Shown here one piece after another: positions 1 to 46,176 of a DNA stretch of 52,362 bases; position 1 is the stretch's first letter; each line of letters begins with the position of its first letter. The position numbers and the translations under genes were made by a program. The notes below the pieces were generated by a model, which was given only the letters and a program-made list of their open reading frames with translations, did not search any database and was not told the DNA's origin. Source of the DNA: a virus; IMG/VR virus record IMGVR_UViG_3300029787_000033, positions 5,744 to 58,105 of that record, one strand, 5' to 3'.

Positions 1-167
1 AAGTATAGGTTTTGTAATGTGACACAGCGTGCTAACTCGCCGATACTGTAGTCACGTACATTAGTTTCTACCCAGTCTGTTTTATTTGTTTCACGAGCTA
101 AGTTAATAAACTCTTGTGCTATGTACTTGCCTAATCGTTTTAAATTTTCATCTTTTATATTATCCAT
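1..167 (-). CDS. Hypothetical protein, C-terminus cut by window edge
   Basis: Reading frame open from an ATG at 167 to the window edge; the visible 55 residues begin MDNIKDENLKRLGKY. No family recognised. The start codon directly abuts the GATAATATA block of an early promoter-like element (156-182), so if that element is a promoter its transcript would begin inside this gene. The gene would then rely on read-through from the upstream operon, or start elsewhere. No in-frame ATG, GTG or TTG follows closely, so the ATG at 167 is kept. Confidence 0.6.
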   Translation of the reverse strand, partial: MDNIKDENLKRLGKYIAQEFINLARETNKTDWVETNVRDYSIGELARCVTLQNLY

Positions 168-189
168 AGGTTGTCGTATTTAGTCTGTG
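156..189 (-). promoter_or_regulatory. Early promoter-like element, copy 1
   Basis: On the minus strand the site reads CACAGAC, then TAAATACGA, nine bases, then GATAATATA. It is one of nine copies with identical 9-nt spacing. This copy is unusual because it overlaps the stop codon of the preceding gene and the first codons of the next one. Confidence 0.6.
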
Positions 190-590
190 TATTTATCTAA
201 TAGTGCTTGAGGTTTACCTACAAATATACACTCATCACCATCAAATATACTAATCCATATAGATTTATAGTAATCACCCCATATATAATAATGGTAATCT
301 ATCCAACTATGAGATTCTCTAGGTTCTATATATACGTCACCTGCACCATCTTTTAGTTCAGCTACTATTGAGGCGGCCATACAACCGATGCCATTAAATA
401 GTCTATCATTTTCTCTACCCATACCATTAACTATATGATAACCATTGAGATAAGATGCTAATGTCACACCTAATCCTTCAGGGTAACCATCCCAGTGATG
501 GTAAATGTCCACAATTGTCTTGTCTGGTATTTCGCTAAACGATACTCCTTCTTCACGTTTAGCTATACTTATCATTGCTCTTGTTGCCAT
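180..590 (-). CDS. Conserved phage protein with HWDGYPE motif
   Basis: This 136-aa protein begins MATRAMISIAK and carries YHHWDGYPEGLG near residues 30-41. Many tailed phages, T4-like ones included, encode a small conserved protein with an MATRS-type start followed by an HWDGYPE-type motif; its role is unknown. The Trp/Tyr/Asp-rich centre (SWIDYHYYIWGDYYKSIW) suggests a compact soluble domain. It is the last gene of the operon starting at 904, and its stop codon overlaps the next early promoter-like element. Family assignment is by recalled motif only. Confidence 0.8.
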   Translation of the reverse strand: MATRAMISIAKREEGVSFSEIPDKTIVDIYHHWDGYPEGLGVTLASYLNGYHIVNGMGRENDRLFNGIGCMAASIVAELKDGAGDVYIEPRESHSWIDYHYYIWGDYYKSIWISIFDGDECIFVGKPQALLDKYTD

Positions 591-594
591 ATTA

Positions 595-666
595 TTATTG
601 TTTTACTTGTATTATAGCTAAAGTAAATAAAACTAAATATATTATTATAACTATTTCTACTTGCAT
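595..666 (-). CDS. Tiny single-helix membrane peptide (23 aa)
   Basis: Short frame encoding MQVEIVIIIYLVLFTLAIIQ plus VKQ, almost wholly a single hydrophobic helix with a charged end. It fits exactly between its neighbours: one base separates it from the gene upstream (ending at 668), and its stop lies just before the next ATG at 590. Tight packing and the hydrophobic composition support translation. No family recognised. Confidence 0.5.
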   Translation of the reverse strand: MQVEIVIIIYLVLFTLAIIQVKQ

Positions 667-667
667 A

Positions 668-904
668 TTATTTATCTATTAAAAATTTATCACCCCACCA
701 CAAGTCTTGAACATCAACCGTGTCAAGAAGCTTTACATGTGAATGTATTATTATCGACCTAACGGCAGCTATTGATAGTTGTGACCAGTCAAGACAACCT
801 TTAAGCTCTTTGATAAGAGCTCTAGTTGTGTAAGGATATGTTTTCTTATCCGCTTTTATACTCGCCAGAATATCTGGTTTGAGTTTATCATGTATTGTCT
901 TCAT
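668..904 (-). CDS. Hypothetical protein (78 aa), first gene of an early operon
   Basis: Begins MKTIHDKLKPDILASIKADK and ends DLWWGDKFLIDK. It looks like a small, mainly helical soluble protein; no family recognised. Its ATG is exactly 3 nt after the GATAATATA block of the promoter-like element at 908-934. If that block is a -10 element, the mRNA would start at or next to the A of the ATG and be leaderless. Confidence 0.7.
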   Translation of the reverse strand: MKTIHDKLKPDILASIKADKKTYPYTTRALIKELKGCLDWSQLSIAAVRSIIIHSHVKLLDTVDVQDLWWGDKFLIDK

Positions 905-907
905 ATT

Positions 908-941
908 TATATTATCTTACTTTATTCGTATTTAATTCGTG
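908..941 (-). promoter_or_regulatory. Early promoter-like element, copy 2
   Basis: The minus strand reads CACGAAT, TAAATACGA, nine bases, GATAATATA, then AAT and the ATG of the 78-aa gene. It lies directly 3' of the structured RNA at 942-1326, so one transcription unit appears to end where the next begins. Confidence 0.65.
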
Positions 942-1326
942 ATTGCAGCTTGGGGAGGAATCGAACCTCCCACCTCGTCAGGCAACGACCCATCGGATAA
1001 TACTTGTGATTACTCACGTCATCTCCTCTTTGCGGACGTCGTCCAGTTCAAGCTGTTGTGAACCGTAGGTGTGGTACCATTAAAAGTATTCCAGCTCCTT
1101 AATATGTGGACCTTCTGTTATCTTCTAAATCGCTTTATCCTACATTGAACCACCTAGTTCACGGTTTTGAGCGCATTATTTTTCCCAACAATTACGGGGA
1201 CCAGGTGATTTCAACCTACGCTCACGCAGCAAGAAGGTTAGATACCGAGTTTCGGTGAGCCGAGTTTCGGTTACACTCCCTTCGCCTGCAATTTGAGAGA
1301 CTTACCCCATATAATGGATTGCTCTC
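942..1326 (-). ncRNA. Highly structured noncoding RNA with a tRNA-like T arm
   Basis: There is no convincing gene in this 385-base stretch, but it is dense in complementary segments. A T-arm-like hairpin lies at 953-971 (six pairs GGGAGG/CCTCCC, loop TTCGATT). Segment 1049-1055 pairs 7/7 with 946-952 as an acceptor-like stem enclosing 110 nt. Segment 1286-1292 pairs 7/7 with 942-948, which overlaps and so competes with the first pairing. A long-range helix joins 1150-1164 with 1058-1074. Two tandem copies of CCGAGTTTCGGT (1245-1256, 1260-1271) each form a small hairpin, and 1295-1299 pairs with 1321-1325. No standard tRNA cloverleaf (no anticodon arm) could be drawn. It may be an atypical tRNA-like or tmRNA-like RNA, but the class is unknown. 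Confidence 0.45.
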
Positions 1327-1340
1327 GTGTTTATAACTAA

Positions 1341-1721
1341 CTATTCGCTTGGCGACTCGTTGTCGTCGTCACTTTCATCAGTTACGCCAAATAAACTTTC
1401 AACATCTCTTATGATTTGCTCGTATAAATCAGCATGGCATTCAAATTCTATGTGTTCTAAGACCACTTTATTATCATATTCCATACCCATTTCAACATTA
1501 TAGTTGTCAGCTTGGTTAAAATCGAAGTTTTCCACGCTAGTTTCTATAACTGTATGTAGCTTAGCAAACTGTTTATTAGTTAACTTTGGCTTATCACAAT
1601 CTTCTAGCTTTTGTTTAGCTGTTGCTAAATCGTGATTTAAACCTTTTACTTGCTCTTCATGAGCTTCAAGAGAGGTTTTTAGTAACTCTACTTGTCTGGT
1701 TAATTCTTCTTTATTCATCAT
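1341..1721 (-). CDS. Coiled-coil hypothetical protein (126 aa)
   Basis: Residues 1-45 form a likely coiled coil (VELLKTSLEAHEEQVKGLNH). A charged middle and a very acidic tail (DESDDDNESPSE) follow. No enzyme motif seen. Two adjacent ATGs (1721 and 1718) could serve as start. The promoter-like element at 1735-1761 lies about 13 nt upstream, giving a short leader. The structured RNA at 942-1326 follows directly and is probably co-transcribed. Confidence 0.7.
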   Translation of the reverse strand: MMNKEELTRQVELLKTSLEAHEEQVKGLNHDLATAKQKLEDCDKPKLTNKQFAKLHTVIETSVENFDFNQADNYNVEMGMEYDNKVVLEHIEFECHADLYEQIIRDVESLFGVTDESDDDNESPSE

Positions 1722-1734
1722 TATTATATTTTAT

Positions 1735-1768
1735 TATATTATCTATTAGTAATCGTATTCAGTTTGTA
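1735..1768 (-). promoter_or_regulatory. Early promoter-like element, copy 3
   Basis: The minus strand reads TACAAAC, TGAATACGA (one mismatch to consensus), nine bases, GATAATATA. It overlaps the 3' end of the Cys-rich gene at 1739-2008 and precedes the coiled-coil gene. Confidence 0.6.
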
Positions 1769-2008
1769 ATTTGTATGTTTTAAGCATACAGTATCTTTTT
1801 CAAATTCTCTTATAATTAGTATACAGTGAGTCATACAACACTTGTCTGTTTTTACTCTGTTAAATATACCTACATATCTTGGGTGAACAGCTTCATACTC
1901 GTGCATTTTGTTTTTATATTTACTTTTATCGTAGTCACAATTTATACTACATTGAGCACCCATTAGTCCACTTATCACAAATCCTGCTATTAATAGTTTA
2001 TTCTTCAT
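1739..2008 (-). CDS. Exported Cys-rich protein A (paralog of the 3594-3962 gene)
   Basis: 89 aa with a clear signal peptide: MKNKLLIAGFVISGLMGAQ, positively charged start and hydrophobic core, with cleavage likely before or near the first Cys. The mature part is short and Cys-rich (CSINCDYD, then TDKCCMTHCILI and DTVCLKH). The same framework recurs in the protein at 3594-3962: AQCxxxCxYD, IFNxxKTxKCxxxxC, DTxCxxH. The protein is therefore likely secreted or periplasmic and disulphide-bonded. A.C start (AQC) leaves lipidation possible but not typical. It overlaps the preceding gene by 4 nt (ATGA). Function unknown; modification of the host envelope or superinfection exclusion is speculative. 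Confidence 0.75.
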   Translation of the reverse strand: MKNKLLIAGFVISGLMGAQCSINCDYDKSKYKNKMHEYEAVHPRYVGIFNRVKTDKCCMTHCILIIREFEKDTVCLKHTNYKLNTITNR

Positions 2009-2205
2009 TTTATAACCTCTACATAAGTTAAACCTTTATACTTAAACCAGTTGTTTATACCCGTTCTCCATTTACCGTTACGTTTGTACTCTAAACATCC
2101 AAAATCTTTTGGTAATTCACCGATCTTGTGTGGTTTGTAAGTTATTTCTACATTTGACTTAGTCATTACTAAGTTTCCATTTTTAAGTATTTTAAATCTC
2201 TTCAT
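2005..2205 (-). CDS. Small hypothetical protein (66 aa)
   Basis: Starts MKRFKILKNGNLVMTKSNV at 2205; a longer frame reaches 2232, but the ATG at 2205 lies one base after the upstream stop (TAATATG), which fits the tight packing here. Basic, β-rich-looking sequence with KRNGKWRTGINNWFKYKG. No family recognised. Four-base overlap with the Cys-rich gene downstream implies coupled translation. Confidence 0.65.
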   Translation of the reverse strand: MKRFKILKNGNLVMTKSNVEITYKPHKIGELPKDFGCLEYKRNGKWRTGINNWFKYKGLTYVEVIK

Positions 2206-2206
2206 A

Positions 2207-2416
2207 TTATTTAAGCATTGTACCATATCCACGTCTACGAGTCAGTTTAGCTATACGTTTAGCATCTTCTTGCGACATAATTTGAATAGTGTTGCCTGTC
2301 TTATGGTTTATGACTGGAGCACAACCGTATCTTTCGACAGTTGAACACTCAACGCACACTCTGAAACCGAGTCGCAAACGTCCTTCTGGTATATTATTTT
2401 TACATTTACATTTCAT
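2207..2416 (-). CDS. Zinc-ribbon-like small protein (69 aa)
   Basis: Cysteines C3, C5, C21, C24 and C32 (CKCKNNIPEGRL ... CVECSTVERYGC) form a plausible zinc-binding unit. The IP-x-x-RL plus CVxC arrangement recalls DksA/TraR-type zinc fingers, and the C-terminal half is basic (AKLTRRRGYGTMLK). It may bind nucleic acid or RNA polymerase, which is inference. Its ATG sits 3 nt after the GATAATATA block at 2420-2428, so its mRNA may be leaderless. Confidence 0.7.
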   Translation of the reverse strand: MKCKCKNNIPEGRLRLGFRVCVECSTVERYGCAPVINHKTGNTIQIMSQEDAKRIAKLTRRRGYGTMLK

Positions 2417-2419
2417 ATA

Positions 2420-2453
2420 TATATTATCGATGAGCTATCGTATTTAATTTGTA
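2420..2453 (-). promoter_or_regulatory. Early promoter-like element, copy 4
   Basis: The minus strand reads TACAAAT, TAAATACGA, nine bases, GATAATATA, TAT, then ATG of the zinc-ribbon gene. The upstream block overlaps the stop codon of the gene at 2444-2695. Confidence 0.65.
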
Positions 2454-2695
2454 TTATCATCTTCATCAGCTCTAGCATAGTCTTCACCAAACATTTCATC
2501 TATTTCTACCGTGTAACTCATATTTGAGTCGTTTTCACTAAGTAATCTTATCGCTGTTTGTAAGCCATCTAGATATCCTGCTTGATATACTGGTCGATCG
2601 TAGTCGTCTAGCACATTAGATGTTATCGCCATATACTCCTCTGGAGTAAGCTCGTCCATTGTTTCTTGTTCTAAATCTTTTAATTTTTCTATCAT
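2444..2695 (-). CDS. Acidic hypothetical protein (83 aa)
   Basis: Begins MIEKLKDLEQETMDELTPEE and ends with an acidic tail. The YMAITSNVLDDYDRPVYQAG stretch and the following amphipathic helix look like a small helical protein. No recognised family. It is the last gene of the unit starting at 3487; its stop codon lies within the next early promoter element. Confidence 0.65.
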   Translation of the reverse strand: MIEKLKDLEQETMDELTPEEYMAITSNVLDDYDRPVYQAGYLDGLQTAIRLLSENDSNMSYTVEIDEMFGEDYARADEDDNTN

Positions 2696-2701
2696 ATCTA
2701 T

Positions 2702-2779
2702 TTATTTTTGTCCATTAGGTGTGCCATTGGGATTAGTTACTAAAAATAATCCACCTGGTTTTGTTAATTCTCTTTTCAT
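2702..2779 (-). CDS. Very short peptide (25 aa)
   Basis: Encodes MKRELTKPGGLFLVTNPNGT plus PNGQK. It fills the gap between two confident genes (stop 2 nt after the upstream stop region, next ATG 7 nt downstream), which supports it as a gene. Gly/Pro/Asn-rich; no function suggested. Confidence 0.4.
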   Translation of the reverse strand: MKRELTKPGGLFLVTNPNGTPNGQK

Positions 2780-2781
2780 AT

Positions 2782-3363
2782 TTAACTTAAATTATAACGG
2801 TGTCCGTTAATTATTACTTGTACGTCATCTGTACTACTGAAGAACTTATCGTCTTCATCTACAAATGGTGATTGGTAGTCGTTTCTATTTGCTCTCCACC
2901 ACTCACCATGTACTTCTGCTACTCTTTTCATAGTATATTCGCCAACTAAAGCATACTCATTTTTATTGTAATAGTTTTTTAGTATATAGTTGCAAAGGTA
3001 TACTATTCTATCTCTGTGAGTATCTATCATGATTCGCTCTGTTCTGTTGCTTTTACGATATTTACCTGTCCAGCTACCATTACAGTCATAATCTTTGAAA
3101 TACTCATCAGATTTGCGAGTTTTATTTAGTTGATAACAACTATAACTTGCGTTACTGGTTGGGTGAACTACCATTTTGCGTACATAACCACTCTTGTAAA
3201 CAGAAAACCTGTTAGGTTCTGCATGACCATTGTAGTACATAGTTTTAAATGGTAATTCCCACACCTCAGTACCTTGCCTTTTTTGCCACGGTTTAGTGAC
3301 TTCTTTGATACCAAGTAATTCAAATACTCGGTATGCTTCTTGCATTGTTTTAACTTTATTCAT
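2782..3363 (-). CDS. Hypothetical protein (193 aa)
   Basis: Start chosen at the ATG at 3363 (MNKVKTMQEAYRVFELLG), one base after the upstream stop. A longer frame to 3438 would overlap the 40-aa gene. The protein is rich in Tyr, Trp and basic residues, with GTEVWELPFKTMYYNGH and AEVHGEWWRANRNDY. It lacks a signal peptide or membrane helix. No family recognised. Confidence 0.7.
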   Translation of the reverse strand: MNKVKTMQEAYRVFELLGIKEVTKPWQKRQGTEVWELPFKTMYYNGHAEPNRFSVYKSGYVRKMVVHPTSNASYSCYQLNKTRKSDEYFKDYDCNGSWTGKYRKSNRTERIMIDTHRDRIVYLCNYILKNYYNKNEYALVGEYTMKRVAEVHGEWWRANRNDYQSPFVDEDDKFFSSTDDVQVIINGHRYNLS

Positions 3364-3364
3364 A

Positions 3365-3487
3365 TTATTCTCTATTTTTATGCTTATTTTTACGAGTATA
3401 AGTCTTTTTACTCTTATGAACACGCTTGAAAGATGCAAGCTTCCAATAAGGATTTCTAGTTTTTATATCTTTTCTGCGTATTTTCAT
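3365..3487 (-). CDS. Very basic 40-aa protein
   Basis: Encodes MKIRRKDIKTRNPYWKLASF followed by a Lys/Arg-rich tail. Its ATG is exactly 3 nt after the GATAATATA block of the element at 3491-3517, and its stop is one base before the next gene, so position and spacing strongly support it. Net charge suggests nucleic-acid or ribosome binding, but no family is recognised. Confidence 0.65.
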   Translation of the reverse strand: MKIRRKDIKTRNPYWKLASFKRVHKSKKTYTRKNKHKNRE

Positions 3488-3490
3488 AAT

Positions 3491-3524
3491 TATATTATCT
3501 GTTACTTGTCGTATTTATATTGTA
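3491..3524 (-). promoter_or_regulatory. Early promoter-like element, copy 5
   Basis: The minus strand reads TACAATA, TAAATACGA, nine bases, GATAATATA, ATT, ATG. It lies 6 nt downstream of the 3' end of the tRNA-Arg gene and drives the 40-aa basic protein and the three genes beyond it. Confidence 0.7.
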
Positions 3525-3529
3525 TTTAG

Positions 3530-3603
3530 TGATCGAGGTGAGAGTCGAACTCACACTCTACAGCTTAGAAGGCTGTTGCTTTATCCAGTTAAGCTACTCG
3601 ACC
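3530..3603 (-). tRNA. tRNA-Arg (anticodon UCU)
   Basis: A complete cloverleaf is visible on the minus strand. The acceptor is GGTCGAG/CTCGATC (one G-U pair) and the D stem is GCTT/AAGC. The anticodon stem is ACAGC/GCTGT with loop CTTCTAA (anticodon TCT), and the T arm is GTGAG-TTCGACT-CTCAC. The discriminator base is A and CCA is not encoded. It reads AGA, by far the commonest Arg codon in the structural genes here, so it probably supplements host tRNA. Its 5' end overlaps the last codons and stop of the exported Cys-rich gene by 10 nt. Confidence 0.95.
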
Positions 3604-3962
3604 ATTCGTAAAACTTTAGTGTCCATCCACTCTGATTTAGTTAGTGGAGTTATTGGTCCACTAGGTCTACTATAAATAGAGTCGAACAGTTCATCAGTAC
3701 GCGGGTGATTCCAACATATAGTATCACCGTTTGCTATTAATATTAAACACTTTTTAATTTTACATTTTTTAGTTTTAGTTTTATTAAAAATATCTTCATA
3801 ATTAGTTGCACTTGATTCAAACATTTCTGTTATATTTTCATTACACCCTTCTACGTGAGTTATAGTTCCATTAGGAAGTCTATCATAACTACACTTCTTG
3901 TTACATTGAGCATCCACTAATCCACTTAGCGCAACACTTGTTATTAATAATTTCTTTATCAT
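3594..3962 (-). CDS. Exported Cys-rich protein B (paralog of the 1739-2008 gene)
   Basis: 122 aa with signal peptide MIKKLLITSVALSGLVDAQ followed by CNKKCSYDRL. It shares with protein A the signal peptide style (SGL-x-x-AQC), the CxYD motif, the core IFNKTKTKKCKIKKCLILI and a DTICWNH segment. It is longer by an insertion with an extra Cys (GCNENITEMFESS) and a C-terminal extension. The mature domain is probably periplasmic or secreted with disulphides. The stop codon TAG lies inside the tRNA-Arg gene. Function unknown; the two copies in one early region imply a sustained role in the infected cell envelope. Confidence 0.75.
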   Translation of the reverse strand: MIKKLLITSVALSGLVDAQCNKKCSYDRLPNGTITHVEGCNENITEMFESSATNYEDIFNKTKTKKCKIKKCLILIANGDTICWNHPRTDELFDSIYSRPSGPITPLTKSEWMDTKVLRMVE

Positions 3963-4189
3963 AAGTTAGATTCTATTAGGTTTTCTAATTGTAGCGAGTT
4001 TTTAACTTTAATCAACTCACTACACCTTTCATACTCTTCGGTGTTTTCGTAGAAGTTTATTACTTCATCAATATCAGCACACTCTATATTGTATGGATTA
4101 CCATAAAACATTGCATCTTCACCTGTATATTGTTCAAGAATATCTTCTACTGAACACCTGTTTGTTAATACTCCGTAAGTATTATTCAT
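3959..4189 (-). CDS. Hypothetical protein (76 aa)
   Basis: Start placed at ATG 4189 (MNNTYGVLTNRCSVEDILEQ). A GTG 42 nt upstream would overlap the previous gene. Acidic and helical in appearance (IDEVINFYENTEEYERCSEL). Four-base ATGA overlap with Cys-rich gene B suggests translational coupling. No family recognised. Confidence 0.65.
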   Translation of the reverse strand: MNNTYGVLTNRCSVEDILEQYTGEDAMFYGNPYNIECADIDEVINFYENTEEYERCSELIKVKNSLQLENLIESNL

Positions 4190-4214
4190 TATTATTTCTA
4201 TATTTACCACTCTT

Positions 4215-4340
4215 TTATTCTTTATCTTCACGTTTATTTATTTCTTCTATTACTTCTTGCTTTACTCTACCGCTGTATATTCGCTGGTTATGAGCTACTA
4301 GTTGTAGTTGTTCTAAGCTTAATGTTGTTAAATCTACCAT
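4215..4340 (-). CDS. Small helical protein (41 aa)
   Basis: Encodes MVDLTTLSLEQLQLVAHNQR continuing to a charged end (INKREDKE). The regular Leu spacing indicates an amphipathic helix. It is the second gene of the unit starting at 4413. No family recognised. Confidence 0.5.
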   Translation of the reverse strand: MVDLTTLSLEQLQLVAHNQRIYSGRVKQEVIEEINKREDKE

Positions 4341-4344
4341 ATTA

Positions 4345-4413
4345 TTATATTTTAGCGCCGTACTCGGCAATTCTTACTATTGTTGCTATTGTTATTAGTA
4401 TTATAAATTCCAT
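4345..4413 (-). CDS. Tiny single-helix membrane peptide (22 aa)
   Basis: Encodes MEFIILITIATIVRIAEYGA plus KI. Its ATG is exactly 3 nt after the promoter-like element at 4417-4443, and its stop is 4 nt before the next ATG. It resembles the 23-aa membrane peptide at 595-666 in size and composition, although no sequence identity is claimed. Confidence 0.5.
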   Translation of the reverse strand: MEFIILITIATIVRIAEYGAKI

Positions 4414-4416
4414 ATT

Positions 4417-4450
4417 ATTATTATCTTACTCAGTTCGTATTTATATTGTG
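4417..4450 (-). promoter_or_regulatory. Early promoter-like element, copy 6
   Basis: The minus strand reads CACAATA, TAAATACGA, nine bases, GATAATAAT (last block slightly degenerate), AAT, ATG. Its upstream end touches the 3' end of the structured RNA at 4448-4588. Confidence 0.6.
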
Positions 4451-4588
4451 GTAATGGTGAGAATCGAACTCACTCATCTCGATTGATGATACCATTTATT
4501 ACCTACTCATTCGCATTATTTATAAGACGCTAAATGTAGTCAACTACGTCTCAAGTTACCACTGATTACTCAGCACTTCATTAGTGGT
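4448..4588 (-). ncRNA. Second structured RNA with tRNA-like T arm
   Basis: Noncoding stretch with a T-arm hairpin at 4457-4473 (GTGAG-TTCGATT-CTCAC). A 7/7 acceptor-like pairing joins 4556-4562 and 4448-4454 (GTGGTAA/TTACCAC). A five-pair hairpin TCATC/GATGA lies just before the T arm, and AGAC/GTCT encloses GTAG/CTAC nearer the 5' end. The acceptor-like 5' strand can instead pair with 4583-4588 (ACCACT/AGTGGT). At about 115 nt it is too long for a tRNA and has no anticodon arm I can draw. Its plan matches the RNA at 942-1326: T arm near the 3' end, alternative pairing, and an early promoter immediately downstream. Confidence 0.45.
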
Positions 4589-4596
4589 TATATAAC

Positions 4597-4773
4597 TTAA
4601 TCTACCTCGTCACAGTTCATACAGTCGATGTATGTAGCACTTGTTTCGCTATTTACTTCGACATTTGCTTTGACATTGTTTATAAACATTGCTAACATTA
4701 TTATTCCGCTTACAATGTAGATGGTACTTACTACCCACTTCAGCACCACCTCGTGACTAAACTTTCTACTCAT
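4597..4773 (-). CDS. Small membrane protein (58 aa)
   Basis: Encodes MSRKFSHEVVLKWVVSTIYI and so on: a charged N-terminus, a membrane helix around residues 13-32, then a polar tail containing CMNCDEVD. The ATG overlaps the upstream stop by one base (TAATG). The terminal CxxC is unusual for so small a protein. No family recognised. Confidence 0.6.
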   Translation of the reverse strand: MSRKFSHEVVLKWVVSTIYIVSGIIMLAMFINNVKANVEVNSETSATYIDCMNCDEVD

Positions 4774-4994
4774 TACGCTATATCTTTGTCGCGTAGTACA
4801 GTTGGTATATTGTTAGTTGCAGTGTACGACTTGTACTTTGTCCAGCAGTTCATTGCTTCTAATTTATCTTTCATTATTGCAAACACTTTGTCGTGATTGT
4901 AAGTAATTGTTTTACCATTTTTGAAAGTTACGTTTATAGTTTCGTCTTTACCGACTAGTGATTGTCTCACTACAAATCTTTTAGAATTTATCAT
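4773..4994 (-). CDS. Hypothetical protein (73 aa), first leftward gene
   Basis: Begins MINSKRFVVRQSLVGKDETI; the first half (VTFKNGKTITYNHDK) looks β-rich and the rest helical. No family recognised. It is the first gene after the divergent region, with the promoter-like element at 5023-5049 giving a leader of about 25 nt, unlike the leaderless arrangement at other copies. Confidence 0.65.
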   Translation of the reverse strand: MINSKRFVVRQSLVGKDETINVTFKNGKTITYNHDKVFAIMKDKLEAMNCWTKYKSYTATNNIPTVLRDKDIA

Positions 4995-5022
4995 AATTAT
5001 TATATTTTATTTATTAGTTATT

Positions 5023-5056
5023 TATATTATCTTTACTGTCTCGTATTTACATTGTA
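5023..5056 (-). promoter_or_regulatory. Early promoter-like element, copy 7
   Basis: The minus strand reads TACAATG, TAAATACGA, nine bases, GATAATATA. It precedes the gene at 4773-4994 by 28 nt. Confidence 0.65.
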
Positions 5057-5059
5057 AAA

Positions 5060-5262
5060 GTATATACATTGTTTAGTTATTATTTTATTGTTGAGTGCTA
5101 TTGCGCCGCACTTCACTGCACACGATTATACATTTGTTTTGTTTAGTGTGACATTAGGTAGTTAAGTTATATAGAGTAACTGGCTACTGTCACATATAAT
5201 CTCTACTCTGCGCCCTCGATTCACTACTCTAATAAGTGGAGCTCGACTTATGATGTTGATTA
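5060..5262 (-). other. Non-coding stretch with hairpins; possible small RNA
   Basis: No gene is visible. The stretch lies directly downstream of the promoter-like copy at 5270-5296 in the leftward direction. It holds a nested stem-loop at 5147-5194 (TGTGAC/GTCACA outer, GTAG/CTAC, then AGTTA/TAACT), a hairpin ATAAGT/ACTTAT around a GAGCTC centre near 5236-5255, and AGTGC/GCACT near 5095-5115. It could be a leftward noncoding RNA, a leader, or part of a replication origin; the sequence does not decide. Confidence 0.35.
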
Positions 5263-5269
5263 TTATACT

Positions 5270-5303
5270 TATATTATCGTTGTATATTAGTATTTACATT
5301 GTA
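5270..5303 (-). promoter_or_regulatory. Early promoter-like element, copy 8
   Basis: The minus strand reads TACAATG, TAAATACTA (T replacing G in the upstream block), nine bases, GATAATATA. No coding start follows; the hairpin-rich stretch 5060-5262 lies downstream. Confidence 0.6.
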
Positions 5304-5361
5304 ATTATTTTATTTTTATTTTATTATTTATATTTAAGTATTTTTGTATTTTTGTTACATA

Positions 5362-5395
5362 TATATTATCGTAATATAGTAGTATTTAGTATGTA
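5362..5395 (-). promoter_or_regulatory. Early promoter-like element, copy 9
   Basis: The minus strand reads TACATAC, TAAATACTA, nine bases, GATAATATA. With copy 8 it forms a tandem pair at the head of the leftward arm. Both carry TAAATACTA, unlike the seven CGA-type copies. Confidence 0.6.
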
Positions 5396-5611
5396 AATGT
5401 GAAAAAATTAGAAATGAAAATATATAAAAATGAGTGCGGTGGTATTAAAAAAATGAGTTTTGTAGTAGTAGGTGTGTATATATAGTATAGCGTAGCACTT
5501 TACTTCTATATTTACAATACGGGAGTAAATATGACTAGTACTATGTGATTATCTACAATATAGGAAAACGGCAAAGTGTCGTACAATTATTAAAGCTTTA
5601 AATTATAAAAA
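5396..5611 (+). promoter_or_regulatory. Upstream region of the rightward operon
   Basis: A 216-base AT-rich stretch without a convincing gene. At 5553-5564 it holds CTACAATATAGG, which recurs with one change upstream of groEL (9202-9213), so it may be a rightward promoter or regulator site. The first gene starts at 5612 after an A-rich run and no Shine-Dalgarno sequence. Confidence 0.35.
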
Positions 5612-9253: not shown

Positions 9254-10819
9254 ATGGAATATAACTTACCAAGTGATTTGGTGAAGAACCTTGATTTTGG
9301 AGGTGAAGCCAAAGAAAGAGTAATAAAAGGAGTTAATAAACTAGCCCAAGCCGTTAAATCTACATTAGGAGCGTCAGGTAAATGTGTTATCTACGAAGAC
9401 GGACGTGGCAAACCGGTCATAACAAAAGATGGTGTAACCGTTGCAGAAAGCGTAGTCTTGTTAGACTCGGTTGAAAACATGGGCGCAACTCTAATAAAAG
9501 AAGCTGCCAGAAATACAGTTAAAGATGCTGGTGATGGTACAACAACTGCTACAGTATTAGCTGAAGCGTTAATTCAACAAATAGACACTGCGGTCGCAGA
9601 TGGTCTTACAATCAGAGAAATTAAAGATGGAGTAAACGAAACACTAGACAGTGTCATTAGCTATTTAAATGATATAGCTATAGACGTTGAAGGTGACATG
9701 TTGAAATCTGTTAGTGCTATATCCTGTAACAACGATAAAGAGCTTGGTACTATTATAGCAGAAGCTTATGATAAGGTTGGTAAAAACGGTGTTGTTTTAA
9801 TGGAAGAAAGCGAATCAGAAGATACATATGTTGATATAGTAGATGGTGTTCAAATAGAATGCGGTATAACATCACCTCATTTCATAACAAGTAAAGATAA
9901 ACATACATGTGAACTAGATAATCCTTTAGTTTTAATATGTAGCTCTGAAATACCTAATGTACGTAAAATACAAAGTATACTAGAATATGTTATTAAGAAC
10001 AACAGATCATTATTAATTGTAGCGCCAGCTGCTCAACAAGTTAAAGCAGCATTGCTTATGAATAAAGTAAAAGGTAATATTAAAGTAAATATTATTGATT
10101 TACCAGGCTTTGGTCCTACTAAAAAGGATTCTACAGAAGATTTAGCTATACTTACAGGTGCTACAGTACTTAATGAAGAACTAGGTGATGATCTTGATCT
10201 TATGAAACCTGAACACTTAGGTGAAGCTGAGTTTGCTGTAACTAATGATAAAAACACTGTATTAACATTAGAAGGCATGACTGAAGGTATTGAAAACAGA
10301 ATAGATACTTTAAATAAAAAACTAGCTGAAGAACAAAACAAGTTTATGAAAAGAAAGTTAGAAGATAGACTAGCTATGTTGTCAGGTAGTGTAGGTATAA
10401 TACGCGTAGGTGCTAATTCTAAGGTTGAGTTAAAAGAAAAGAAAGATCGAGTTGAAGATGCTATATATGCTACAAGAGCTGCACTGCAAGAAGGTATAGT
10501 GCCAGGTGGTGGTGTAGCATTATTGAATGCTGCTCAAAAAATTTCAACTAGCGATGCTGGTAAGGTGTTGTTAAATGCTTTATCGTCACCATTTGAAGTA
10601 ATAATGGATAACGCTGGTATGAATCTAAATATGAACATGAAAGAAGGTTATGGTTGTAATGTTGTAACTGGTGACTTTGTTAAAATGATTGATAGTGGTA
10701 TTATTGATCCAGTACTTGTAACTAAGTCTGCGCTTAAAAATGCTGTGAGTGTAGCTTTAACTATTATGTCAGCAGACTGTGTAATATCAAATATAAGAGT
10801 ACCAAATGCAAGCAATTAA
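9254..10819 (+). CDS. groEL: Chaperonin GroEL, phage-encoded
   Basis: 521 aa; ATP-driven folding chamber subunit in the cytoplasm. All key signatures are present: KPVITKDGVTVAESV, the nucleotide-binding DAGDGTTTATVLAEAL, the apical-domain PGFG, and VEDAIYATRAALQEG with the Asp needed for ATP hydrolysis, followed by GGGVALL. The equatorial-apical-equatorial order is intact. The C-terminal GGM repeats of bacterial GroEL are missing (ends RVPNASN). In the apical substrate site, the E. coli GYLSPYF segment is GITSPHF here, so Y199 and Y203 equivalents become Ile and His. Overlaps groES by 14 nt. It probably folds capsid or other large virion proteins. Confidence 0.97.
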   Translation: MEYNLPSDLVKNLDFGGEAKERVIKGVNKLAQAVKSTLGASGKCVIYEDGRGKPVITKDGVTVAESVVLLDSVENMGATLIKEAARNTVKDAGDGTTTATVLAEALIQQIDTAVADGLTIREIKDGVNETLDSVISYLNDIAIDVEGDMLKSVSAISCNNDKELGTIIAEAYDKVGKNGVVLMEESESEDTYVDIVDGVQIECGITSPHFITSKDKHTCELDNPLVLICSSEIPNVRKIQSILEYVIKNNRSLLIVAPAAQQVKAALLMNKVKGNIKVNIIDLPGFGPTKKDSTEDLAILTGATVLNEELGDDLDLMKPEHLGEAEFAVTNDKNTVLTLEGMTEGIENRIDTLNKKLAEEQNKFMKRKLEDRLAMLSGSVGIIRVGANSKVELKEKKDRVEDAIYATRAALQEGIVPGGGVALLNAAQKISTSDAGKVLLNALSSPFEVIMDNAGMNLNMNMKEGYGCNVVTGDFVKMIDSGIIDPVLVTKSALKNAVSVALTIMSADCVISNIRVPNASN

Positions 10820-11063
10820 CGATTACGTAATAGTAGATAAAATAAAAGAAGGTCCAAAGAAAGTTGGAGGTTTAATTTTAACAGATAAGACTGATGAAAC
10901 AAATAGATATAAAAAAGCAAATATTATATCTGTAGGTAATATGGTTGAAATAGTAAAAGAAGGTGATAAAATATATTATGATGCTTTAGCTGGTCACGAT
11001 ATAGCTTATGATGATACCATGTATAGAGTTATACGAGCTAGAGATATAGTTATAGTAGAATAA
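10806..11063 (+). CDS. groES: Co-chaperonin GroES, short phage form
   Basis: 85 aa against about 95 in bacteria. It begins MQAINDYVIVDKIKEGPKKV and ends RARDIVIVE, matching the GroES β-barrel ends. The mobile loop that docks to GroEL is present with GGLIL in place of the usual GGIVL. The roof hairpin region is shortened, as in T4 gp31. Located immediately after and overlapping groEL, so the pair is translated together and presumably works as a dedicated phage chaperonin. Confidence 0.93.
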   Translation: MQAINDYVIVDKIKEGPKKVGGLILTDKTDETNRYKKANIISVGNMVEIVKEGDKIYYDALAGHDIAYDDTMYRVIRARDIVIVE

Positions 11064-24949: not shown

Positions 24950-27900
24950 ATGCCAGAGATTAAACATACTTTCGCTGGTGCTAGGATGAATAAAGATGTC
25001 GATGAGAGACTAGTACCTAATGGAGAATATAGAGATGCTAAAAACGTAAAGATTAGAAACACTGATAGCGTTGGTGACGACGGTATAGGTGATGCTGGTA
25101 CTGTGCAGAATATAAAAGGTAATAAAATAATTAGCAGTAAGCATCATGTAGCCGAAACTTATGTTGGATCGTTTTCTTCTAAATGTATAGGTAGTGTTGC
25201 TAATGAAAAAAATAATAAATCTTATTTTTTAATTTCAGCTCCTAAGTTTGATAAGTTTTTTACAGATATTAAATCTATACAAAGTAGAGCTAAATTAATA
25301 GACTGTATAGTAGAAGTAGATGTTAAAGATAATAATTCTGATCCAGAAACTAAAATAGTTGTAAACGATTTTTTTGGTATTATAGATAAGAAAACAAATA
25401 TAATAACAGAATCACCTGTTATGCCTTTTCAATCTTTAACAATAGACTCTTCAGTTGATATAACTGGTATTAGAACTGGTATGGTTATGTCAGGTTTAGA
25501 TAATGATGGAGAGTTTTTATTTTCTTCTACGATACAAAACTTTGATAATCTTGTAATAACTTTTTACGATCAAATAAATATAGACAACTGGGACGATTGT
25601 AAAGTTATAACACTTATACATCCAAATAGACCTTTAAATTTTGATGTTGATAATAGGATAAACTCTATAAATATTATTGATGATTTACTATTTTTTACAG
25701 ATAACGTAAATGAGCCTAAAAAAATAAATATAAAAAGGTGTATAGATGGTACTAATCAAAGTGGAAAAGTACACACTAAAATAAAATTAAAAGATCCTAA
25801 AGATAAAGATGTTTTATTAGATTATGTGAATGTTGAAGACTCCTCAAGTAGTTCTTTAGAAGTTTCTTTATCACCAAGTGTTAATGGTGATTTAAAAGAA
25901 GAGCATATAACAGTAATTAGAAAAGCCCCTAAAATAGCACCAACTCTAGAAATGAAAGATAAAGATAGAGAAGGTGAAACTATTGCTACTGGTATTGATT
26001 TTGATATAGTTGGTCAAGCTGATTTAAATGGATTTGAATTTGAAAATGGATATCAGTTTTCAATAACAAGTAGTTTAATACAAGGAGGTAATGCTCCAAA
26101 CTGGTTTGAAAATGATATATTAATATTTGAAGAGCAAGTAAACTCAGACACTCCTGCTATAATAAAAGCTAGTTTAAATAGTTTTAATAAAGATACTGGA
26201 ACTATAAATTTAACAGTAATATCTTTTACTTTAAATGCTTTACCAGCTGTAGACGGTACATCTGGATCTGGTATTTGGGATATAGATATAGAACAAAAAA
26301 AGCCATTGTTTGAATTAAAAATGGTTAGATTTGGTTGTAGATATAAATATGAAGACGGTGAGTGTTCTAGTTTTGGACCTTGGTCTGAAATAGCTTTTTT
26401 ACCAGGACCTTATAAATATAATCACAAAAAAGGTTTTAACTTAGGTATGGTTAATAATCTTAGAAGTCTAGTTATAAAAGACTTTATTCCATATCAAAGA
26501 TCTAGAGAAGCTGATATTGTTGCTGTCGATATATTATATAAAGCTACAGATTCAGCTGTTTGTTATTTAGTAAAAACTATAAAAAGAGGTATTGATCCAG
26601 AGTGGGACTTACTAACAACATCATCTCCAGAAATACAACCACCCTCAAACTGGTTGTTCGGTAAGTTTACTATAACATCAGAAATGATATATAGAGCTAT
26701 TGAAGAAAATCAATTGTTAAGATCTTGGGATAACGTGCCAAGAAGAGCTTTAGCTCAAGAAATAGCTGCTAATAGATTAATGTTTTCAAACTATGTACAA
26801 GGTTATGATATTAATAGTGTTGTAAGTTTATTAACTAATCATAATTTTGAAGATACTGCTACTACTGGTGAACCTAAAAAATCTGTTAAAAGTATAAGAA
26901 ATTATAAGTTTGGTATGGTTTTTGGAGATAAGTATGGTAGAGAAACTCCTGTTGTAGCTAATGGCTTTTTACAAGGTGATAGTGTTAATAATCCAGAAAT
27001 GTTAAGTGGTGATGTGACTATAGAAAAGTCGTTTGCTGCAATGAGAAACTATTTTGAGTTAACACAAGACTGGAATAGTGTTGATCCAAACGGTGTGCCT
27101 GAAGACTGGATGGAGTATGTTAAGTATTATATTAAAGAAACATCTAATGAGTATTACAATATAATAATGGATAGATGGTACGATGCTCAAGATGGCAATG
27201 TTTGGATATCGTTTAACTCTGCTGATAGAAATAAAGTTGATGAAGAAACTTATTTAATACTAAAAAAAGAACAAAACAGTGACCAAGCTGTTTTAGAAAA
27301 AGCTAGATATAAAATCATAGCAATAGCTAATGAAGCTCCAAACGATATTAAAACAGAAGGCAGGTTTATGGGTGGAGTATCTGTAGGTTCTTCTGAAGCT
27401 GAGTCTATGTATAGTGCGGCATCTCCAGATTTCAACACTAATATACCAGATTTATTAATGACTGAAAATGTTATATTAATAAATCAAAATCAATGGGAAG
27501 ATTATTTAGACCAGTATGAACCTAAAGGTGATTTAAAAGTTAGAATAACCGGTACAGTAGGTACAACAAAACTAACAACACCTTATAGAAAAGTAACTTA
27601 TTTTGGAGTTGGTTTTAATGGTCAAGGTGTAGTAAGGTGGAATAAACCCTTTGGTGATACCGCTAATATGGTTAATAGATTTACCTCTGTAGGTATAACA
27701 CCATCAGCTAGTAATCCTCTTGTTTATGGCTTTGAGTTTGAAGAAGATGTTATTACAGAAAACAAAGCTGAATTTGATGGTAAGTTTTTTGTAAAACTAG
27801 AAAAAGATATTGTATTAGAAACAAAAGTTTTAAAAAGTTTAGATCAAAACATTACTTTTGAAAATACAGAAACATTTAATATAGGTTATTTAGATAATCA

Positions 27901-30900
27901 AGTAGATAATCCTGGTACTAGTTGGAGCTATGAAGATGCTAACGGCAACACTGTTACTGCTCCTAGAGCTAGTTACACTTGGATGAATTCTTCACCAGCT
28001 GCTAACAATGATAGTACTAACAACATTGATGGCACTAATATAGCAGAGCTTTTACCAACAAATCACTTAGCTGGATTTTTAGCTTCTTTTCCAACTCAAA
28101 ATTTATCAGAAGGAGCTTCGTACTACGCTTTTGGTGGTGACGCTGGAAGTGGTGATGGTGGTGATCAATATGATGCTATACCTACTTTTCAAGATGTTAA
28201 TGGTAATCTTAGGGTTAACATGGCTAGACAAACAGCTAGATTTTGGCAGTGGTATATACAAACAGCAAATCCTGATACTAGAAATAAATTGTTTATTGAT
28301 GGTTTTAGATTATTTAACGGCAAGCTAACTGGAGCTAATCAATCAGATCCATTTAGCAATAATGATGGTAATGGTAATTCTAAATCAGAATACTACTACA
28401 AACCAACAGGTGTTGATCCTGGTGTTTTAAGTGGTGAAAACTTTGGACCAACTAGTGGTGAGCTTGGTAGAATATTTTTATCTTTTCCACTGAGACAAGC
28501 TAGTAATCCTCAACTTGTTCAAAATTCATTTTCACAACCTGGTTTTGAAGAAACAGATTCAGCTAGATTAGCACAACACATGCAAGGTACAGGTAATTTT
28601 TTTAGATTTACTGATGATCCTACTAATAGTATTTATAAAATAGTTGGACAACCTGATACTTTAGAATTAGGTAGTGCTAAAAATTTTGCACAACTTCAAG
28701 ATTGTGGAGATTTTTCTTCTGGTGCGGTCAGTGAGTTAGCTAATCCTAGTACTTTATTTTTTCAAGCAGACGGTACTGGTCAATTAATGGACACTATTAG
28801 TGATAATGGATATCAAGGACCTGGAACTTTTTCAGAACCTACTTTAGAAAACTTTATAATTGGTGGTGCTAATGGGCAGAGTGTTAACAACGGTGTTCCA
28901 GCTTGTAATCCTCTTAGCTCGCTAGGCAGTTCAACGGCATCAACAGATCTTACAAGAGTTTGTCAAAGAGAAGGTTTTAGAGTTGAATTTAGAAAAGTAG
29001 ATGATAGTGGAAATTTAATAAACTCAGGTACTAGAGGTATAGATACAACTACTTTTGATCCAAGATCTATGGTTTGTCATGATGGTAGAGAATCTCTTAG
29101 AATTAGTATTGTTAATGCGGTTAATACTGGTGGCGAAGTAGCACCAACTGAAAATGCAGCTTTGTTTGAAACAGAACCTAAAGAAGATATTGGATTAGAT
29201 TTATACTACGAGGCGTCAAATGCTATACCAATGAGATTAAGCAAAACAAATGCTTCATACTTTGCTCCATATAAATCAAAGGTTACTTCGGCTGGTCCTG
29301 ATGGATTTACAACACAAATACTAGCAAATACACACATTGATCATCAGGTTTCTCATATTGGATTTACTGAAAACTCTGTTATAATAGCCGTTAAATCTTT
29401 AAATGTAGCAAATAACGCTACAGATTTAGCTTTACATGCTGTTACAGGTGATATGCAAATAAAGTCGTTTTTAATATTTGAACACTCAAATGGAACTAAA
29501 ACAAGGGCTAAAATTACTGGATATGCAACTCCAGATGATGATACTCAAGTTGATTACGGTGAAACTACATTTACAGTAAACATAAATCCTAGTACAACAA
29601 CAAATCCACCTACAGGTTATTATGAAATAGAAACTGAAGTTTATAAAAATAAAGTTGAATTAGGTTGGTTTAATTGTTATGCTTTTGGTAATGGTGTAGA
29701 ATCTGATAGAATAAGAGATGATTTTAATGCACCTCAAATAGATAATGGTGTAAAAGTTTCTGCAACTTTTTTAAACTATGGAGAAGAAGACAAGGGAAGT
29801 ACTTTAATATACTCAGGTATATACAACTCTATATCAAGTGTTAATAATCTAAATGAGTTCAACATGTCTGAACTTATTACTAAAGATTTAAATCCTTCGT
29901 ATGGATCTGTTCAAGCTTTAAAAACTAGAGATACAGATATAATAGCCTTAGCAGAAGATAAGGTTTTAAGAATAAGTACTCAAAAAGATGCTTTATTCAA
30001 TGCTGATGGTAATGCACAATTACTAGCTTCAAATAGAGTTTTAGGAACAGCAATACCATATGTTGGCGATTATGGAATATCTAAAAATCCAGAATCACTA
30101 GCAGTAGATGAATATAGGATGTACTTCACTGATAAACAAAGAGGCGCAGTCATGAGATTATCACAGAACGGTTTAACACCGATATCAAGTGTTGGTATGA
30201 AGACTTACTTTAGAGATACTTTACTTGATTCTAATGAAATGTTAGGTACATATGATAAAGTTAATAGTGAGTATAATTTAACTTTAAAAACAAAAGAAAG
30301 TGTAAGCGTTGAAAGTACTACTGTATCTTTTAATGAAGGTTCAAAAGGTTGGACTAGTTTTAAGTCATTTATACCTGATGACGGAAATTCTGTAGCTGGA
30401 AAGTACTTAACTTCTAATACGGGGTCTATATGGTTACATAATGATGATAGTACAGATAGAAATACTTTTTATGGCACTTACTATGAATCTTCATTAAGTG
30501 TTGTTTTTAATGATGCTCCAGGTGCTGTAAAATCTTTTTTAACAACAAAATACGAAGGCTCACAAGCTAGAGTTACTCAATTTACTGATTCACTAGAATA
30601 CACACAGCCAGACGGTAGTGATTTTAATGTAACTACAGATGGTGAGTATTTTAATTTAGATTCTAAAAACGGTTGGTATGTAAATAAAATAACAACAGAT
30701 CAATCTTTGAAAGATGCTGCAGATGAAAGAGGTTTAATAGAATTTATAAATAAAGAAGGTAAATGGTATAACAGAATAGATGGAGGTTCTAGAGCGACTA
30801 TAACAGACTCAGATTTAAACGAATTTAGTGTTCAAGGTCTAGGTGTTGCAACAGCTGTGGTAAATACAACAGAAACTAATATAGAAAACGACACTCTTAC

Positions 30901-30961
30901 AGCTATAAATCTTCAAGTAACAAGTGACTTTATAGATGATCCAACAAATACAATAGATTAA
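24950..30961 (+). CDS. Giant tail nozzle/stabilisation-like protein (2003 aa)
   Basis: N-terminus MPEIKHTFAGARMNKDVDER, then LVPNGEYRDAKNVKIRNTDS. This matches the start of podovirus tail nozzle or phage-stabilisation proteins (T7 gp12/P22 gp10-like: D-x-D-ER-x-x-PNGEYRDA-N). The last 450 residues return to that type of fold, with VQALKTRDTDIIALAEDKVL, AVDEYRMYFTDKQRGAVMRL and LGTYDKVNSEYNLTL, as in β-propeller tail proteins. The centre, from roughly residue 250 to 1550, is unusually large and Asn/Ser/Gly-rich. At 2003 aa it is more than twice the T7 protein, so it likely carries inserted receptor-binding or enzymatic modules. Confidence 0.8.
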   Translation: MPEIKHTFAGARMNKDVDERLVPNGEYRDAKNVKIRNTDSVGDDGIGDAGTVQNIKGNKIISSKHHVAETYVGSFSSKCIGSVANEKNNKSYFLISAPKFDKFFTDIKSIQSRAKLIDCIVEVDVKDNNSDPETKIVVNDFFGIIDKKTNIITESPVMPFQSLTIDSSVDITGIRTGMVMSGLDNDGEFLFSSTIQNFDNLVITFYDQINIDNWDDCKVITLIHPNRPLNFDVDNRINSINIIDDLLFFTDNVNEPKKINIKRCIDGTNQSGKVHTKIKLKDPKDKDVLLDYVNVEDSSSSSLEVSLSPSVNGDLKEEHITVIRKAPKIAPTLEMKDKDREGETIATGIDFDIVGQADLNGFEFENGYQFSITSSLIQGGNAPNWFENDILIFEEQVNSDTPAIIKASLNSFNKDTGTINLTVISFTLNALPAVDGTSGSGIWDIDIEQKKPLFELKMVRFGCRYKYEDGECSSFGPWSEIAFLPGPYKYNHKKGFNLGMVNNLRSLVIKDFIPYQRSREADIVAVDILYKATDSAVCYLVKTIKRGIDPEWDLLTTSSPEIQPPSNWLFGKFTITSEMIYRAIEENQLLRSWDNVPRRALAQEIAANRLMFSNYVQGYDINSVVSLLTNHNFEDTATTGEPKKSVKSIRNYKFGMVFGDKYGRETPVVANGFLQGDSVNNPEMLSGDVTIEKSFAAMRNYFELTQDWNSVDPNGVPEDWMEYVKYYIKETSNEYYNIIMDRWYDAQDGNVWISFNSADRNKVDEETYLILKKEQNSDQAVLEKARYKIIAIANEAPNDIKTEGRFMGGVSVGSSEAESMYSAASPDFNTNIPDLLMTENVILINQNQWEDYLDQYEPKGDLKVRITGTVGTTKLTTPYRKVTYFGVGFNGQGVVRWNKPFGDTANMVNRFTSVGITPSASNPLVYGFEFEEDVITENKAEFDGKFFVKLEKDIVLETKVLKSLDQNITFENTETFNIGYLDNQVDNPGTSWSYEDANGNTVTAPRASYTWMNSSPAANNDSTNNIDGTNIAELLPTNHLAGFLASFPTQNLSEGASYYAFGGDAGSGDGGDQYDAIPTFQDVNGNLRVNMARQTARFWQWYIQTANPDTRNKLFIDGFRLFNGKLTGANQSDPFSNNDGNGNSKSEYYYKPTGVDPGVLSGENFGPTSGELGRIFLSFPLRQASNPQLVQNSFSQPGFEETDSARLAQHMQGTGNFFRFTDDPTNSIYKIVGQPDTLELGSAKNFAQLQDCGDFSSGAVSELANPSTLFFQADGTGQLMDTISDNGYQGPGTFSEPTLENFIIGGANGQSVNNGVPACNPLSSLGSSTASTDLTRVCQREGFRVEFRKVDDSGNLINSGTRGIDTTTFDPRSMVCHDGRESLRISIVNAVNTGGEVAPTENAALFETEPKEDIGLDLYYEASNAIPMRLSKTNASYFAPYKSKVTSAGPDGFTTQILANTHIDHQVSHIGFTENSVIIAVKSLNVANNATDLALHAVTGDMQIKSFLIFEHSNGTKTRAKITGYATPDDDTQVDYGETTFTVNINPSTTTNPPTGYYEIETEVYKNKVELGWFNCYAFGNGVESDRIRDDFNAPQIDNGVKVSATFLNYGEEDKGSTLIYSGIYNSISSVNNLNEFNMSELITKDLNPSYGSVQALKTRDTDIIALAEDKVLRISTQKDALFNADGNAQLLASNRVLGTAIPYVGDYGISKNPESLAVDEYRMYFTDKQRGAVMRLSQNGLTPISSVGMKTYFRDTLLDSNEMLGTYDKVNSEYNLTLKTKESVSVESTTVSFNEGSKGWTSFKSFIPDDGNSVAGKYLTSNTGSIWLHNDDSTDRNTFYGTYYESSLSVVFNDAPGAVKSFLTTKYEGSQARVTQFTDSLEYTQPDGSDFNVTTDGEYFNLDSKNGWYVNKITTDQSLKDAADERGLIEFINKEGKWYNRIDGGSRATITDSDLNEFSVQGLGVATAVVNTTETNIENDTLTAINLQVTSDFIDDPTNTID

Positions 30962-44084: not shown

Positions 44085-44087
44085 ATA

Positions 44088-44098
44088 TGTAACTATAA
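44088..44098 (+). promoter_or_regulatory. Late promoter-like motif, copy C
   Basis: ATGTAACTATA followed by AATAAAAGAATAAA, almost as at 34019. It lies 15 nt before the ATG at 44114. Confidence 0.55.
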
Positions 44099-44113
44099 AT
44101 AAAAGAATAAATT

Positions 44114-44296
44114 ATGATTAATTGGATAAACTCTTGGAACTCCAAGAATAAAAAAGAAGTATACGAATTAAACTTTAGATTAGGTACGATAACTATTTTA
44201 CAGTTAGAGTTTTGTCCTTGTGTTAAATGTGACAATAAAAAAGGAACGTGTGCGAAGTTTAGATTTATGTTGTTTAACTTTGGATTTGAAATATAA
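44114..44296 (+). CDS. Small Cys-containing protein (60 aa)
   Basis: Starts MINWINSWNSKNKKEVYELN and has FCPCVKCDNKKGTCAKF with four clustered Cys, possibly a zinc site. Follows a promoter-like motif and is joined to the next gene by TAATG, supporting it. Function unknown. Confidence 0.6.
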   Translation: MINWINSWNSKNKKEVYELNFRLGTITILQLEFCPCVKCDNKKGTCAKFRFMLFNFGFEI

Positions 44297-44364
44297 TGTG
44301 TCCTTGTCCAATATGTATAACAGCAATGGTTATTGCGGCGTGTAGCTACAAATTGTTAAAATGA
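44296..44364 (+). CDS. Tiny Cys-rich peptide (22 aa), possible lipopeptide
   Basis: Encodes MCPCPICITAMVIAACSYKL plus LK. Its start overlaps the previous stop (TAATG) and its stop overlaps the next start (ATGA), a packing unlikely to arise for a non-gene. It has four Cys; MVIAAC resembles a lipobox, though the preceding part is shorter than a normal signal peptide. Function unknown. Confidence 0.5.
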   Translation: MCPCPICITAMVIAACSYKLLK

Positions 44365-46175: not shown

Positions 46176-46176
46176 T

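Follow-up and report, generated by a model that had tools for sequence, protein, structure and literature searches.

The DNA analysed here (the window, 52,362 nt) comprises positions 5744 to 58105 of the 61,942-base IMG/VR virus record IMGVR_UViG_3300029787_000033 (G000). Its structural genes run rightward from 5612 and its non-structural genes leftward from approximately 5.4 kb. The terminase and portal are of a type known from podophages of Cellulophaga and Flavobacterium and from uncultured relatives of these, and the large terminase subunit (TerL) shares 62% identity with that of MW202828.1 and 47% with those of the elemo phages. A preliminary description of the non-structural arm had reported a nine-copy promoter family in which a first block, TAAATAC[G/T]A, is followed by a second, GATAATATA, at a fixed distance of nine bases. 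All nine copies were found between 156 and 5388, each directed leftward and each with the 9-nt gap. We propose that they are probably the promoters of a phage sigma regulon, recognised by host core RNA polymerase (RNAP) together with a phage-coded sigma factor. Their strand and the genes that they precede are compatible with an early or a middle class, and the sigma gene itself lies behind such a promoter. The predicted promoters are as follows, each with its box (-38 to -22), predicted +1 and nearest open reading frame (ORF):

Promoter 1: 5358..5396, - strand; box TTACATAC-TAAATACTA; -10 GATAAT; predicted +1 at G5358; noncoding leader.
Promoter 2: 5266..5304, - strand; box TTACAATG-TAAATACTA; predicted +1 at A5266; in tandem with promoter 1.
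Promoter 3: 5019..5057, - strand; box TTACAATG-TAAATACGA; predicted +1 at A5019; ATG of ORF 4773-4994 lies 25 nt downstream.
Promoter 4: 4413..4451, - strand; box CCACAATA-TAAATACGA, second block GATAATAAT; predicted +1 at the A of ATG 4413; 22-amino-acid (aa) ORF, leaderless.
Promoter 5: 3487..3525, - strand; box ATACAATA-TAAATACGA; predicted +1 at the A of ATG 3487; 40-aa ORF, leaderless.
Promoter 6: 2416..2454, - strand; box ATACAAAT-TAAATACGA; predicted +1 at the A of the ATG of ORF 2207-2416; leaderless.
Promoter 7: 1731..1769, - strand; box TTACAAAC-TGAATACGA; predicted +1 at A1731; ATG of ORF 1341-1721 lies 10 nt downstream.
Promoter 8: 904..942, - strand; box TCACGAAT-TAAATACGA; predicted +1 at the A of the ATG of ORF 668-904; leaderless.
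Promoter 9: 152..190, - strand; box ACACAGAC-TAAATACGA; predicted +1 at G152; ATG at 151.

Seven copies match TAAATAC[G/T]A-N9-GATAATATA exactly. Those at 1735 and 4417 read TGAATACGA (one mismatch) and GATAATAAT (two mismatches), so that a count of nine identical sites is slightly loose. As had been noted, TACA(A/T) stands two bases upstream of the first block in six of the nine; the remaining three carry CACAA, CACGA and CACAG. Chance occurrence was assessed in 300 first-order Markov windows, which yielded no exact match and, when up to two mismatches were allowed, 20 matches (approximately 0.07 per window) against the nine observed. With up to three mismatches, a scan of the whole record returned the nine leftward sites and a single three-mismatch match on the other strand, while the reversed-pattern control returned one; no own-strand site beyond the nine was found anywhere in the 61.9-kb genome. 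The placement of every copy at an operon start held for seven sites and failed for 5270 and 5362, which lie in tandem in a noncoding stretch. The first ATG coincides with the predicted +1 at four sites (4413, 3487, 2416 and 904) and follows it by 1 nt (151), 10 nt (1721) or 25 nt (4994) at three others; thus four promoters of the window begin on an ATG and one begins a single base ahead of it.

A scan of IMG/VR recovered the motif from at least 119 viral stretches. The viruses bearing it form a common, abundant and uncultured group, kin of the flavobacterial phages. Alignment of 206 unique sites, chosen solely by TAAATACGA-N9-GATAATAT, gave the consensus TTACAAAC-TAAATACGA-N9-GATAATATA followed by a purine at +1. 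The TACA element belongs to an almost uninterrupted box, TTACAAAC-TAAATACGA, and is among the best-conserved parts of the motif in the relatives (A 95%, C 97%, A 98%, A 91%). The +1 base, seven positions past GATAAT, was not used in selection and is A or G at all 206 sites; where GATAATAT occurs without the box, the same position is a pyrimidine in 49 of 148 cases (33%). GATAAT, including A-11 and T-7, is retained in 241 sites selected with a position weight matrix. Among loci fetched by TerL or sigma, every one of 141 unique sites has the nine-base gap when gaps of 3 to 17 are permitted, which bears out the rigid spacing first described.

The position of start codons provides a further signature. 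Sigma-bearing genomes provided 273 unique sites, of which 44 have an ORF's ATG exactly at +1, 13 have it within the next eight positions and many have it farther on. Since an ATG either coincides with +1 or, in most cases, follows it by 9 nt or more, +1 is likely to be the transcription start and many of the mRNAs are likely to be leaderless. For comparison, the leaderless share in F. psychrophilum is 5.5% (PMC6847099, PMC9723704). A -10 hexamer with A-11 and T-7 and a start 7 nt downstream characterise a sigma70-family promoter, and the sites show this hexamer with a predicted start at that distance. Judged from sequence and its conservation, the sites are a real, phage-specific promoter family of fixed spacing. 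Operators or replication elements might also give a multi-copy motif restricted to one arm of the genome; the constant orientation with the genes, the phasing of ATG to +1 and the purine at +1 make this very improbable.

We next consider what might read the sites. The sigma-A factor of F. johnsoniae reads T-12 A-11 n n T-8 T-7 T-6 G-5 (PMC6847099). The phage motif shares the -10 register of flavobacterial sigma-A promoters, with A-11 and T-7 (PMC6847099, PMC9723704), but lacks T-12, T-8, T-6 and G-5 and possesses a long upstream box instead. Thus GATAATAT departs from TAnnTTTG at -12, -8, -6 and -5, in agreement with the earlier statement that the motif is not the Bacteroidetes housekeeping promoter. 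Ordinary early promoters used by the host sigma-A holoenzyme with no phage protein would satisfy the need of phages for some host-read promoters first, and A-11 and T-7 are common to the host -7 box. However, four of the six positions differ (G-12, A-8, A-6 and T-5), just eight stretches in 84,980 cellular genomes carry the motif in a stricter form, and the -13 base switches between genomes; we regard host-only recognition as unlikely. Several of the eight stretches are on very short contigs of metagenome-assembled genomes, and we infer phage contamination or chance for the eight. On the early strand the host-type pattern TTTG-N17-21-TAnnTTTG occurs at 5 sites, compared with 8 in Markov sequence, and so shows no enrichment.

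The base at -13 hardly varies among the sites of one genome yet changes between genomes (mutual information 1.18 bits, z 21.6). It is T in 13/13 sites of L263, C in 9/9 of L272, G in 7/7 of L274 and A in 8/8 of L277. The upstream box also differs by clade, being TTACAGTC in L268 and AAAATAATA in L295 and G058, while L243-L245 combine a TTGCA box with an altered recognition helix. Such genome-specific variation ties the DNA motif to a reader that itself differs between genomes.

A candidate for this reader is encoded to the left of the window. Promoter 9 is the nearest motif upstream of an operon that runs left beyond the window and encodes DNA ligase, thymidylate synthase, a helix-turn-helix (HTH)-like protein, a sigma factor, ERF and an exonuclease. 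The 252-aa sigma70-family gene (record positions 2370-3128, - strand) belongs to the leftward gene run that follows the motif at 156. Its product matches Pfam Sigma70_r4 above cutoff (8e-7) and Sigma70_r2 just below cutoff, and the NCBIfam sigma70 superfamily model above cutoff (4e-16). A profile of the protein matches the FliA and RpoD structures, with FliA the best match in the PDB, although the NCBIfam FliA model scores it far under its cutoff (48 against 190 bits). In the AlphaFold model, 97 residues of region 2 align with sigma70 at 2.3 Å (Z 12). By these comparisons the protein is a sigma70-family factor with regions 2 and 4. In sigma70, Q437 and T440 contact -12. These residues correspond to invariant G106 and R109 of the phage sigma, and every selected site has G at -12. 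Of 24 genomes, 23 have a single sigma-family region-4 match; the remaining one (G015) carries the sigma by direct comparison.

The preliminary description had suggested a phage activator or a phage RNAP as the reader. A phage-coded protein is indeed probable; the best candidate is a sigma70-family factor and not an RNAP. A phage RNAP, whether single-subunit or a crAss-like virion enzyme, might be sought in the giant virion proteins (2003 and 2518 aa), and T7-like promoters are likewise rigid. Set against this, the giant proteins carry no RNAP active-site motif, the multi-subunit family PF00623 was not found in a search with a working control, and the -10, the +1 purine and the geometry of the sites are sigma-like, such that a phage RNAP is extremely improbable. 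The search for the single-subunit family (PF00940) gave no control match and was uninformative. As for the giant proteins themselves, the 2003-aa product (24950-30961, + strand) has a match to the crassvirus muzzle C-terminal domain of Pfam, which links the lineage to crAss-like tails. The 2518-aa product (36528-44084, + strand) contains the HAD-type motifs DFDETL, TARP and VDD plus HEALH, and no RNAP motif.

In the sigma regulon as we propose it, host core RNAP carrying the 252-aa factor would read the upstream element from -38 to -22 (TTACAAACTAAATACGA) and the -10 GATAAT at -12 to -7 together. Region 2 would engage GATAAT, with invariant R109 (aligned to sigma70 T440) facing invariant G-12, while region 4 and the linker would read the upstream box. 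Transcription would begin at the purine 7 nt past the -10, which for many genes would be the A of the ATG, giving a leaderless mRNA. As the sigma gene follows one of these promoters, positive feedback on its own expression would be expected. A more specific form of the model is possible but doubtful: the linker and region 4 would jointly recognise 17 bp without a break (-38 to -22), at a single fixed spacing and on the non-structural strand only, the sigma would be delivered in the virion or bootstrap itself, and the earliest genes, many of them leaderless, would depend on the phage sigma rather than on host sigma-A.

The distribution of the sigma gene is consistent with the proposed regulon. 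It is present in 31 of 41 motif contigs of at least 45 kb and in 21 of 21 of those of at least 56 kb, on the motif strand. In the remaining ten contigs the adjacent HTH and ERF genes are missing as well, and these contigs hence appear truncated there. The sigma gene is thus found in every near-complete motif genome, as expected of a phage sigma regulon. Conversely, wherever an early region has the sigma and 8 kb or more of upstream sequence (27 regions), the motif is present, in 4-13 copies (median 8) against 0-1 on the opposite strand. G059 and G064 have the sigma and no motif was found in them; judged by gene direction, the early region is absent from these contigs. Both the motif and the sigma are missing from five cultured relatives with related terminases, in a search that was without an internal positive control; a tblastn search of the sigma against the phage collection likewise gave no match.

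Covariation between protein and DNA was also assessed. Distances between upstream boxes correlate best with distances in the sigma linker (r 0.52) and region 4 (0.47); region 2 gives 0.27 and the HTH protein 0.25, and the corresponding value for thymidylate synthase derives from four genomes and is unusable. When the divergent L243/L244 pair is left out, this order persists for -30 to -22 and for the whole box and fails for -38 to -31. Sigma residue 114 was entertained post hoc as a determinant of -13 (T, S, N or H mostly with A-13, I mostly not) and was rejected, as an unbiased column scan gave it no rank for -13.

Several observations weigh against the sigma regulon as proposed. TerL identity of at least 70% is common to all 26 genomes tested, which makes them one lineage, and co-occurrence alone is no proof since common ancestry might keep motif and sigma together without any contact between them. 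Without L243/L244, the region-4 correlation drops to 0.36 and, for -38 to -31, that of the HTH protein is the higher (0.24 against 0.12); single-residue association did not single out sigma, HTH columns being equally high. A normal -35 element is shorter and lies farther upstream than the 17-bp box, which reaches -22; the direct repeat in the box, TACAA-N6-TACGA with an 11-bp period, resembles a tandem activator site. Lastly, the sigma model leaves the first making of sigma unexplained.

The reach of the box to -22 and its 11-bp repeat make a second protein on the box a real alternative. In such a case a MotA/PhoB-like activator, bound at the half-sites TACAA and TACGA one helical turn apart, would recruit RNAP with host sigma-A or the phage sigma to GATAAT. 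The direct repeat at -37 to -22 and the absolutely rigid 9-bp spacing speak for it, as does an HTH-like protein gene that often overlaps the sigma gene by 4 nt. This conserved protein of approximately 200 aa (for example L089:3125-3736, - strand) has a confident structural model (predicted local distance difference test, pLDDT, 88), and its fold has no Foldseek match to solved structures below E 0.09. However, the HTH protein, the one obvious candidate, is absent from G062, G063 and G008, all of which bear the motif, and so is not an obligatory reader; in the full set, moreover, variation of the box follows the sigma linker and region 4 more closely than it does the HTH protein. Overall we consider the activator model rather unlikely; an activator, if there is one, might also be another, unrecognised protein.

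The proposed sigma regulon may be compared with known systems. The middle promoters of T4, dependent on MotA/AsiA, have an upstream box at a fixed distance from the -10, as here; the present motif differs in its box and spacing and is accompanied by a sigma gene rather than a MotA homologue. FliA/sigma28 promoters (TAAAGTTT-N11-GCCGATAA) share GATAA in the -10, and FliA is the best structural match of the sigma profile, but the spacing and the -35 are unlike. In Bacillus phage SPO1, gp28 is a middle sigma; it too is a sigma from the non-structural arm, and it opens a middle gene class, as the present one may, although the host phylum and consensus are others. The gp36 protein of phiEco32 and gp47 of 7-11 are established phage sigmas with phage-only promoters (PMC8948821), steering host core RNAP to them as proposed for the present phage, and there as here early/middle and late genes occupy opposite strands. 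The 7-11 promoters are bipartite (GTAAtg-16-aCTA) and start 6-9 bp from the element (PMC8948821). The promoters of phiEco32 and 7-11 serve late genes (and some middle genes in phiEco32), whereas the present motif is confined to the non-structural strand and has another consensus, a rigid 9-nt gap, a box reaching to -22 and frequent leaderless starts. As proposed, the present system works like the known phage sigmas and differs in consensus, spacing, strand and leaderless starts. No description of the motif was found in the literature searched, subscription papers being outside its coverage.

If the proposal is correct, abundant uncultured phages possess a sigma/promoter pair that has diverged among genomes, and the varying -13 next to a fixed GATAAT offers a natural data set on the evolution of sigma specificity. 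It would also provide promoters for Bacteroidetes that do not depend on host sigma-A, and allow the regulon to be annotated in well over 100 metagenomic stretches. The question would then be posed of how transcription begins when the non-structural genes sit behind the promoters of their own sigma.

Other features of the locus were recorded. A tRNA-Arg gene (3529-3603, - strand) ends just upstream of promoter 5. At 4446-4503 (- strand) is a 58-nt tRNA-like element that scores 18 bits with the Rfam tmRNA model, below cutoff. A 400-nt noncoding stretch at 935-1335 (- strand), partly conserved in relatives, has a perfect tRNA-like T-arm (GGGAGGTTCGATTCCTCCC) at its 3' end; ARAGORN found no tRNA or tmRNA in it, and no tmRNA in 900-1345. 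The 4446-4503 element, the tRNA-Arg and the T-arm element near 942 each end at, or a few bases from, the upstream edge of a promoter box.

On the late strand, ATGTAACTATA occurs at 23292, 34019 and 44087 (+ strand), preceding the late genes at 23324, 34052 and 44361, and the first site is conserved in near relatives (L012-L014). As a late counterpart of the motif it was rejected, being barely enriched in relatives. Upstream of the first late gene, the conserved block at 5508-5570 (+ strand) contains an inverted repeat, ATATTTAC-N9-GTAAATAT, then TATGTRATTATCT, and is possibly a late promoter or its operator. The structural genes include a phage GroEL and a GroES-like gene (9254-11063, + strand). 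At least eight late proteins of otherwise different sequence have, close to the N-terminus, a shared tag that reads M[A/G]FKMKGFSPFTK or nearly so (genes at 6091, 6615, 7834, 8433, 8696, 47628 and 50405, + strand, and L090:451), which is possibly a packaging, cleavage or targeting signal. Finally, within the annotated phage collection MW202828.1 (L210) is the closest relative; in place of the motif, its early region (approximately 43700-50000) contains 11 perfect palindromes, GTGTCGTTAACGACAC.

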